This document shows positions 41,076 through 43,933 of a stretch of 43,933 bases of DNA, in pieces; positions within the stretch are counted from its first letter, which is position 1; each line of letters starts with the position of its first letter. Under the pieces are notes generated by a model. It ran no database searches. It saw nothing but the letters and a program-made list of their open reading frames with translations, and was not told the origin of the DNA. This DNA comes from a virus, in IMG/VR virus record IMGVR_UViG_3300048927_000029, positions 1 to 43,933 of that record. One strand, given 5' to 3'. Made by a program: the position numbers and the translations under genes.

Positions 41076-43379
41076 TCAGTCCGACAGGTCATCTTCGTCT
41101 TGTGTTGGCCGCACATCTTCGAAGTCTTTTGGTGCCTGTGGGACCCTGAACATGGTGTGGCGGTCGTCTTCTCCGTTCTGCAAACGACCCTTATTGTCTT
41201 TGCCGTAACACAGGATTCCGCGCTCGGCTAACTCTTTAACACAGGCCCGACGTCGCTGGTTACCGCCGCCCGGGATGCGCTTCATAATCTCGCTGATGGC
41301 GTAACCCTGTGGCCGGTTGTCCTCTGCCTGCAACTCTTCGATAGCGGCCAGGACCGCAGCCTCGTCGCCTTTAAGCTGCAGCTTGTCTTTGGTTTGTTTC
41401 ACCGCCTGGCGTCCCACATCGGCAGCTTTAGAGTCGAACGGGGCCAGGGCCACAGGGATGAGGACTAAGGTCTCGTCGCGCGGCTGAGAGTCCAGTGGCT
41501 TAATGGTCTGTCCTTCGAGGAACGCGGAGAAGTCTGGTGCTTCGCGGTCCGATTGCAGCGCCAGGATAGCGTCGGCATGGCCCTGTGCGACTTCAATCTT
41601 GCACTTCGCCAACAGGAAGCCCCGCGGCAATTGTTTCGTGCTGCCGCGGGCCTTCTCCATGTAGAAGTTCAGGCGCAGCGGTTCCGACTCGTCCGGCTGT
41701 TCAATGAAGTAGACGAAATCAACCGCGCCATGCAGCGCGCCGGAGCCGCGACCAATACGACGGGTGCCTTTCTCTGATTTGGCCGGGTGGTGGACGACGC
41801 CCGCACACGCACCGGTTTCATCGGCAATCGCTTTAAGCGCCGAAGCCACAGTGCCCATGTCCGAGGATGAGTTCTCGTCGAACGGCTTATCCGACAGCGC
41901 AACCGACTGGTTCAGGGAGTCGAACGCCACCAGGCCTACCGGGTCGGTGCCGGCCGTTGTGCGGATATGGCGGATAATGGCGCGCTGGCCCGCCTTGCTG
42001 GTGATGTCCCAGCCTTCAGATTGCAGGTCGATGATGTGCAACCAGTCCAGGTCGTCGCCGTATGTCTTCTGTAGTGCCTGCTTGCGGTCGAGCGTCGTGC
42101 TGCCGCCCTCGGCGTCGAAATAGAAGCTGTGCGATTTTATAACCTTCGCGCTAGCAAACGGCAGCCCGGCCGACGCGCATGCCATCTGCCCGAGCAGGAA
42201 GAACGATTTACCGATGTTGGACTCTCCAACCAGCTCGAACGTAGATTTAAAGTTGTACAGGCCGTCGATAATCGGGTCGCGCTTGGTGAACAGTGCGCAA
42301 GGTTCGTCCATCAGGTCTTCGTCCTGGCAGACGTGCGCATCCAGACCGTCGGCTGCTGCCTCTACCTGGTTACGGTGAACGTGCTCTACCTCGTCCTCAT
42401 CCATGAACGGGAACAGCTCGGCGATTTGCTTCTTCGAAATGTTATGCGCTTCTGGTAAATAACTGTTTGGCACGCCGACAAGCTGAAGCATCATGTGCTG
42501 GTGGCTGTTCAGGTTGCGACAGTGCGCGTGCTGGCAGACGAAGCGCACTTCAGGGTGCAGCGAATCCGGCAGCATGATAGCGGTGTCGCCCTCGGTGCCG
42601 TCGCGGCCATCGGTGTGGCTCATGTGATTCGGGCACTGGATAGCCCAGCCGCGCCCGGACGACATCATCTCCAGGCCCATTTCGAATGCCCAGCCTGCGA
42701 TAGCCTGCGAGTTCTCCGACGCAGCGGCGAGCGACTCTTCGGACCAGACCGTGTTGCCGGACTCGCTCGGCGGTTCATAGCCGTTGTTCAGCATCTGGCT
42801 GACGCGCACCGGCTTGCCTTTTCCTTCCCACCACTCAGCACCATACGGCGGCACGAACATGATGCGGGCGCGCTGGCAGGCGGTCATGTCGACACCTTCC
42901 ATCTCGTCCAGACCAATCCAGTTCAGAAAGCTGTGCTGTACATGCCAGATTTCGTCCGCATCCATTGGACGATTGGTCGGGATAAGGAAGCGAACCGCGC
43001 GGACGTCAGCCCCGCCTTTCAGCGCGTGACGGTCGGAACTGGTGCCGTGAGCGAAATAGGCATAACCCTTCTCGTCAAGGGTGCGGGTTACTTTGCGCAC
43101 CTGGCGGGTGGTCACGCCGTCCAGGTCAATAAACAGGATAGAGCGGCCAAGAACGGTGTCATTAGAGCGCACCTTATCCACGGCAGCGGCGATGTAGTTC
43201 TGCTGTTTCTTCTTGCGGTCGTACTGCTCTTTTGTTTCGTCGCCGGAAAACGTGATGCCGAAAGACGGCTCATCAATGTAGAGTTGCATCTCGGCGATGA
43301 ACTCCGGCCAGGTCATATCGTAGTTTTTGGCGCGACGGGATTTAGCATCGTTGCCGATGGAGAAGAGAATATTTTCCAT
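41076..43379 (-). CDS. Primase-helicase (AEP-type primase fused to RecA-like helicase)
   Basis: This encodes 767 residues. N-terminal domain (1-230): FIDLDGV with D85 and D87, HGTSSDRH and RFLIPTNR, the pattern of archaeo-eukaryotic-type primases. About 245-290: CPNH...CQHAHC, a zinc-binding segment. About 365-620: a RepA/AAA_25-like helicase with GESNIGKS (K391) and VAFDSL (D487). C-terminal 640-767: winged-helix-like, acidic end. It primes and unwinds DNA for the family A polymerase, and is encoded on the opposite strand from it. AAAGGTAGCAGC precedes the ATG. Confidence 0.88.
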   Translation of the reverse strand: MENILFSIGNDAKSRRAKNYDMTWPEFIAEMQLYIDEPSFGITFSGDETKEQYDRKKKQQNYIAAAVDKVRSNDTVLGRSILFIDLDGVTTRQVRKVTRTLDEKGYAYFAHGTSSDRHALKGGADVRAVRFLIPTNRPMDADEIWHVQHSFLNWIGLDEMEGVDMTACQRARIMFVPPYGAEWWEGKGKPVRVSQMLNNGYEPPSESGNTVWSEESLAAASENSQAIAGWAFEMGLEMMSSGRGWAIQCPNHMSHTDGRDGTEGDTAIMLPDSLHPEVRFVCQHAHCRNLNSHQHMMLQLVGVPNSYLPEAHNISKKQIAELFPFMDEDEVEHVHRNQVEAAADGLDAHVCQDEDLMDEPCALFTKRDPIIDGLYNFKSTFELVGESNIGKSFFLLGQMACASAGLPFASAKVIKSHSFYFDAEGGSTTLDRKQALQKTYGDDLDWLHIIDLQSEGWDITSKAGQRAIIRHIRTTAGTDPVGLVAFDSLNQSVALSDKPFDENSSSDMGTVASALKAIADETGACAGVVHHPAKSEKGTRRIGRGSGALHGAVDFVYFIEQPDESEPLRLNFYMEKARGSTKQLPRGFLLAKCKIEVAQGHADAILALQSDREAPDFSAFLEGQTIKPLDSQPRDETLVLIPVALAPFDSKAADVGRQAVKQTKDKLQLKGDEAAVLAAIEELQAEDNRPQGYAISEIMKRIPGGGNQRRRACVKELAERGILCYGKDNKGRLQNGEDDRHTMFRVPQAPKDFEDVRPTQDEDDLSD

Positions 43380-43393
43380 GCTGCTACCTTTAT

Positions 43394-43431
43394 TTGACTA
43401 TTTTAGCAACACGGCGCTATACTCGTGTTGC
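43394..43431 (+). promoter_or_regulatory. Rightward promoter with operator-like palindrome around the -10
   Basis: TTGACT (43394..43399), 18 bases, TATACT (43418..43423). The -10 lies exactly between the arms of an 8-bp inverted repeat GCAACACG (43406..43413)/CGTGTTGC (43424..43431), so a dimeric repressor bound there would block RNA polymerase. It points away from the primase gene. Confidence 0.6.
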
Positions 43432-43459
43432 GGGACTTGTTCCGTATGCCGCGCACGGC

Positions 43460-43487
43460 ATCTTAGGTTTTGTTGTAATGGTGACAA
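43460..43487 (-). promoter_or_regulatory. Leftward promoter candidate for the primase-helicase
   Basis: Minus strand TTGTCA (43487..43482), 16 bases, TAAGAT (43465..43460). It lies just downstream of the terminator at 43501 and about 80 bases before the primase ATG at 43379; its transcript would run through the palindrome at 43406-43431. Confidence 0.4.
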
Positions 43488-43496
43488 TCCACTTCG

Positions 43497-43534
43497 AGAA
43501 AAGCCCGCACTATACTTGGTCGCGGGCTTCTTTT
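43497..43534. terminator. Bidirectional terminator
   Basis: AAGCCCGC (43501..43508), 13-base loop, GCGGGCTT (43522..43529), TCTTTTT on the plus side and TTTTCTC on the minus side. It ends the plus-strand RNA candidate and the leftward HTH operon. Confidence 0.85.
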
Positions 43535-43707
43535 TACTCTACGTTTTTAGTTGATAAAAATTCCTCAATAATATCCAGACAGTCAGCCAGTACCATATCA
43601 ACATCTGTTTCCAGAGGGGGTACGTGCATGGCCGCGCGGCCTTTAGTAAAGTCATCTAAGGCCTTATTTATCCTTTGTTTAAGTAGTTGTGCTTTCGTAT
43701 TAATCAT
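43534..43707 (-). CDS. Hypothetical protein downstream of the HTH regulator, 57 aa
   Basis: This encodes 57 residues (MINTKAQLLKQRINKALDDF..., VDMVLADCLDIIEEFLS), two amphipathic helices joined by a short loop (GRAAMHVPPLETD). ATGA overlap with the HTH gene means the two are translated together, so it may modulate the regulator. Its stop sits in the terminator T tract. Confidence 0.6.
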   Translation of the reverse strand: MINTKAQLLKQRINKALDDFTKGRAAMHVPPLETDVDMVLADCLDIIEEFLSTKNVE

Positions 43708-43925
43708 TCCGCATCTCCTTCCGCCAGCCAGCGCGGGTCTACTTCCAGCACGTCTGCCATCTTGAACAGCAGGTTAACATCGGCAATATTGTTACGCCCG
43801 CAGCACAGGTGGCTGATTGCCGATTGTGTCACGCCGCAGCGCTGCGCCATCTCAATTTGCATAATGCCTTTCGCACGCATGGTTTCACGAAGGCGGGCAC
43901 TAAACTCGGTCGGTTGTGGCTTCAT
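43704..43925 (-). CDS. Cro/C1-type HTH transcriptional regulator
   Basis: This encodes 73 residues. An HTH_XRE domain covers about 8-66: FSARLRETMRAKGIMQIEMA, QRCGVTQSAISHLCCGRN (recognition helix), LFKMADVLEVDPRWL. It has no protease or dimerisation tail, so it is Cro-size. AAGGAGCTATGTA precedes the ATG. It faces the rightward early arm and is the most likely binder of the operator-like palindromes at 43406 and elsewhere. Without an integrase it probably times lytic transcription and does not maintain lysogeny. Confidence 0.9.
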   Translation of the reverse strand: MKPQPTEFSARLRETMRAKGIMQIEMAQRCGVTQSAISHLCCGRNNIADVNLLFKMADVLEVDPRWLAEGDAE

Positions 43926-43933
43926 TACATAGC
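43807..43933. repeat. Terminal direct repeat (right copy)
   Basis: Exact copy of 1..127. See the left copy for interpretation. Confidence 0.95.

Follow-up and report, generated by a model that had tools for sequence, protein, structure and literature searches.

A short antisense RNA is probably made by this phage and its relatives immediately before the primase-helicase gene, and the antisense unit, consisting of a plus-strand promoter (P+) and a terminator, is conserved and likely real as judged from comparison of sequences. The inverted repeat that encloses the -10 of this promoter is suggested to be better read as a hairpin in the leader of the primase mRNA, overlapping the antisense promoter, than as an operator.

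The window (the whole stretch of DNA analysed, 43,933 bases) was identified as deriving from a Cornellvirus-like phage of the Guernseyvirinae, with Salmonella Cornellvirus-like phages being its nearest relatives. Bases 1-127 were found to be identical to bases 43807-43933, and due to this exact 127-base end repeat the record is read as closed and circular, with a length of 43,806 bases. The order of features on the minus strand is the HTH_3 gene, a 57-aa ORF, the leader region in question and the primase-helicase gene, with the HTH_3 gene being upstream of the primase and in the same orientation. The features of the region are as follows:

41076-43379, minus strand, replicative primase-helicase (phrog_3228, 1039 bits)
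43391-43387, minus strand, AAAGG, ribosome-site-like sequence of the primase-helicase, identified from sequence
43394-43423, plus strand, P+, predicted antisense promoter, present at an equivalent position in each of the 16 distinct clade leaders
43394-43399, plus strand, -35 of P+ (TTGACT), identified from sequence
43418-43423, plus strand, -10 of P+ (TATACT) after an 18-base spacer, identified from sequence
43406-43431, minus strand, inverted repeat GCAACACG-N10-CGTGTTGC, best read as a primase mRNA leader hairpin overlapping P+
43430-43535, plus strand, antisense RNA of ~106 nt, predicted from promoter and terminator
43446-43461, plus strand, 6-bp hairpin (ATGCCG-CGCA-CGGCAT), found only in the window and phage St162
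43502-43528, plus strand, terminator hairpin with a T-rich tail to 43535, the tail being weaker on the sense strand
43534-43707, minus strand, 57-aa ORF with no family match, replaced by other ORFs in relatives
43704-43925, minus strand, Cro/CI-type HTH protein of 73 aa (HTH_3)

Solved relatives of the HTH protein were found to be C.AhdI and the 434 repressor. The slot between its gene and the terminator (43534-43707; also L002, L010, L011, L021, L023 and L024) is a swap-in site, holding unrelated ORFs of ~57-86 aa, an HNH endonuclease or nothing among relatives, and the terminator hairpin was found to vary among relatives with different content in this slot. No relatives of the primase were found in bacterial genomes. 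In PSP2-22, the sequence of the HTH gene is kept, unannotated, beside antirestriction-type and packaging genes with no adjoining primase, while in PSDA-2 the primase is annotated in several fragments, due to sequencing error or decay, with a normal leader. Furthermore, three relatives of Jersey- or Kagunavirus type (L018, L019, L020) possess a second HTH gene directly after the primase on the opposite strand, the transcript of which could cross the whole primase in antisense, up to the conserved terminator.

P+ scored 12.9 with a simple sigma70 matrix, making it the joint second-best site of the window on both strands, with 99% of random 150-base pieces having no site above 11.2. Its predicted start lies near 43430. 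The arms of the inverted repeat (GCAACACG, 43406-43413; CGTGTTGC, 43424-43431) are a perfect 8 bp, with the -10 situated inside the 10-base loop, and an equally good repeat arose in 0.6% of trials in which the sequence 3’ of the left arm was shuffled. The TTGACT-18-TATACT promoter of the original prediction, with its -10 enclosed by an 8-bp inverted repeat, is present as described and is not attributable to chance.

Leaders were compared among Cornellviruses, Enterobacter phage phiEap-2, Hafnia phage TS33, Pantoea phage AH01 and several IMG/VR contigs, the clade leaders being those whose primase is ~76-97% identical, plus the partial contig L040 at 61%. Loss of the promoter in homologous phages would have spoken against the antisense RNA, and P+ was found to be kept in all 16 distinct clade leaders, with its -35 positioned 17-21 bases from the primase start in each. 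It takes the form TTGAYT-17/18-TATAMT or looser, with the -10 being the consensus TATAAT in several relatives and scores being at least 9.8 with the exception of L007 (7.4, the weakest). Among 13 distinct leaders, the hexamers of P+ had a mean identity of 0.87, which is higher than that of columns drawn at random from the region (permutation p 0.005), and mean column identity was 0.90 for the left arm, 0.69 for the neighbouring spacer and 0.52 for the loop. No sense-strand promoter was found at a constant place among the compared leaders; a candidate at 43487-43460 (TTGTCA-16-TAAGAT) was rejected, being limited to the window and St162. A recognizable P+ was not found in Klebsiella, Serratia, Jersey- and Kagunavirus-type relatives. 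The contig of Edwardsiella phage eiAU-183 (L042, primase 45%) has TTGCAT-17-TATACT here, overlapping the primase start region, with no repeat, which is a lead only. Taken on its sequence and conservation, P+ is quite likely to be an active promoter.

The terminator, predicted to lie about 75 bases past the start, was located at ~73 bases downstream of it, with the hairpin at 43502-43528 being followed by TCTTTTTA. A plus-strand hairpin with a U-rich tail follows P+ in 14 of 14 leaders, and on the sense strand the tail is poor in the outgroups phiEap-2, Hafnia phage TS33 and L007. The ~100-nt RNA proposed to lie opposite the primase-helicase leader was thus upheld as a prediction, at ~106 nt in the window and ~69-106 nt across relatives, with promoter and terminator being kept. 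Two features of the cis-antisense RNAs of replication genes, an opposite-strand promoter within the leader and a short transcript with an intrinsic terminator, are thereby predicted from sequence. Counter-evidence to an antisense unit is the weak promoter of L007 and the presence of the plus-strand terminator in relatives lacking P+ (Klebsiella, Serratia, Jersey- and Kagunavirus types); the terminator therefore need not have evolved for the antisense RNA, and is either older or has a further use.

The stretch from the repeat to the terminator was found to differ freely among leaders in both length and sequence. The keeping of P+ and the terminator around a drifting interior fits a cis-antisense RNA, or transcription as such, rather than a trans-acting small RNA; an unconserved interior is tolerable for a cis-antisense RNA because RNA and target, being the two strands of the same DNA, change together. 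The perfect 6-bp hairpin described earlier does exist, but was rejected as a functional RNA fold as it is not conserved across leaders, and no Rfam family was found above its gathering score anywhere in the window. The interval had also been described as free of genes, which holds in so far as no conserved gene is present, although one relative, Shemara, has a 46-aa ORF annotated across the region. This was rejected as a plus-strand small protein, as the Shemara ORF begins upstream of P+ and ORFs of its type vary between relatives in length, frame and sequence and are cut by early stops in L008, L022 and L005. No useful papers on transcriptomes of Guernseyvirinae or Jerseyvirus were found.

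The hairpin of the primase leader ends 26 bases upstream of the primase start codon, with P+ spanning it, and its fold has a z-score of -3.7. On the sense strand 88.6% of alignment cells were paired, with four of nine pairs changed on both sides, compared to 79.5% of cells paired on the plus strand, a gap that is mainly due to G-U pairs possible only in the sense RNA (~11 cells versus 1). The sense-strand covariation score was 0.301 (plus strand, 0.160), above all 500 shuffles, to which moderate weight is given, as shuffles of this kind can be exceeded by related sequences even when no structure exists. A hand count of separate changes favoured the sense strand by ~6 to 1 (one-sided binomial ~0.06), making the asymmetry suggestive and not proof. 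In one hairpin alignment the row of AH01 has a gap within an arm, which slightly lowered the count.

Reading the palindrome as a DNA operator over the -10, at which the neighbouring HTH protein would bind and switch the antisense RNA on or off, has in its favour the perfect 8-bp dyad around the -10, a left arm (CAACAC) that is nearly invariant and fixed 7 bases past the -35, a 9-mer (GCAACACAG) common to P+ and the HTH promoter in the Hafnia phage, and the absence of the palindrome from relatives that lack P+. Such control by a repressor, as was originally proposed, is nevertheless considered unlikely. The 26-base palindrome has no second site in the window when up to 3 mismatches are allowed, and is missing from the HTH gene’s own promoter both in the window and in other Cornellviruses. 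The loop between its arms is 10 bases in Cornellviruses and phiEap-2, 11 in AH01, 14 in L005 (with the same arms) and 8 in L006, a 3-bp difference between AH01 and L005 despite nearly identical HTH proteins, whereas constant spacing, and a copy at the repressor’s own promoter, would be expected of a dimer operator. A dyad of fixed spacing recurring at the repressor’s promoter was therefore not found (a single site, with a loop of 8-14 bases), and the substitutions, which preserve wobble pairs of the sense strand, favour a hairpin of the sense RNA. An operator or prophage copy in a host was also rejected, with palindrome plus -10 having no match in 84,980 bacterial and archaeal genomes; among viral contigs it had two matches only, both to already-known relatives, and a looser pattern of the palindrome, found in 21 viral contigs, was treated as chance. 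The divergent HTH/early-gene promoter region (128-260) contains a strongly conserved block, AAAGTGCTTGC, plus TATTATAGTT in relatives, and the TACTAAT/ATTAGTA-like words of this region could be the real operators of the HTH protein.

The drifting interior is also compatible with P+ acting solely by transcriptional interference, in which opposing polymerases reduce read-through on the sense strand and the RNA itself is without function; the conservation of promoter and terminator but not of RNA sequence fits this. Sequence leaves it inseparable from the antisense RNA model, and it was judged quite improbable as the sole explanation. The same feature, suggesting that transcription itself may be the important part, could point to a replication origin at P+, with a short transcript priming or opening the DNA beside the primase gene, a role known for transcription at the primary origin of T7. 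P+ adjoins the primase-helicase gene and the minimum of cumulative GC skew falls at the window ends, near the P+ locus, but the skew is confounded by gene direction, which flips there too. In addition, no iteron array was noticed in an unsystematic look, and relatives lacking P+ replicate using the same kind of primase, leaving an origin with a distinctly low probability. That the conserved block is simply the hairpin and ribosome site of the primase mRNA leader, with P+ being incidental, would agree with the good support for the hairpin on the sense strand and with the frequency of promoter-like words in AT-rich leaders. Yet the -35 and -10 fall outside the arms that pair and are among the best-kept columns, with the -10 reaching the consensus in several relatives, and an incidental P+ was regarded as very unlikely.

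The preferred reading is that the element is a compact cis-antisense transcription unit that lowers primase expression, for which the chances are put at about even. The promoter, the terminator, the conservation of both and the sense hairpin are well supported by sequence. Host RNA polymerase would start at P+ (~43430) and stop at the terminator (~43535), resulting in an RNA of ~106 nt. Between the terminator hairpin and the 5’ foot of the leader hairpin (43431-43406), this RNA would pair perfectly with the mRNA leader of the primase-helicase. The sense transcript would presumably arise by read-through from the HTH gene, or from a start at a weak, unconserved promoter, with its level being set by the HTH repressor at the HTH promoter and not at P+. 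Primase expression may then be lowered either by the antisense RNA or by opposing transcription as such, through cleavage of the duplex by RNase III, attenuation or polymerase collision; a direct block of translation is not obvious, as the antisense RNA does not reach the ribosome site. The production of the RNA, its repression of the primase and the route taken are what we infer.

Antisense RNAs beside a repressor gene that control replication are textbook for plasmids. In IncFII/R1, the antisense RNA CopA is of similar size and is directed against a replication-gene leader (CopT), working through loop-loop contact, while no conserved loop was found in the phage RNA. The copG-rnaII-repB region of pMV158, in which rnaII lies across the copG-repB intergenic region on the opposite strand, shares the order of a small repressor gene, a short opposed antisense RNA within the intergenic leader and a replication gene, with the RNA spanning the part of the leader that immediately precedes the translation start signals (PMC4485353). 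Its RNA is of 48 nt and belongs to a Gram-positive rolling-circle plasmid, unlike the predicted RNA of a lytic phage facing a primase-helicase gene. CopG, furthermore, is not an HTH_3 protein, unlike the HTH protein of the phage. The copR-rnaIII-repR region of pIP501 similarly has a repressor gene and a convergent antisense promoter in the leader of the replication gene, and CopR acts at the sense promoter and not at the antisense promoter, which is indirectly freed, an arrangement likened here to the phage layout (PMC4981023). The differences are that transcription attenuation is demonstrated for its 136-nt RNA while the phage RNA is predicted, and that repR has its own promoter, pII, with no conserved sense promoter in the phage. 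By analogy, the nearest phage precedent in kind is lambda OOP (pO-oop-tO), likewise a short antisense RNA of a phage, made next to replication genes between a promoter of its own and a terminator, and having a LexA site in the promoter region (PMC5869508). OOP covers the 3’ end of cII in a temperate phage, whereas the RNA described here would face the primase leader; membership of the OOP type was rejected on this ground and on the palindrome having no match to CTGT-N8-ACAG.

To our knowledge, there is no established case of such control for the primase of a lytic phage. It is possible but doubtful that a clade of lytic phages uses a plasmid-style copy-number circuit of repressor, antisense RNA and replication gene, in which the antisense promoter sits within the hairpin of the opposed mRNA; if true, the same 26 bases would be a promoter on one strand and a leader structure on the other. 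A single 26-base element used by both strands would be a neat and testable case. Guernseyvirinae are often isolated for work against Salmonella, and the antisense unit, if real, would give a simple handle on how these phages time DNA replication.
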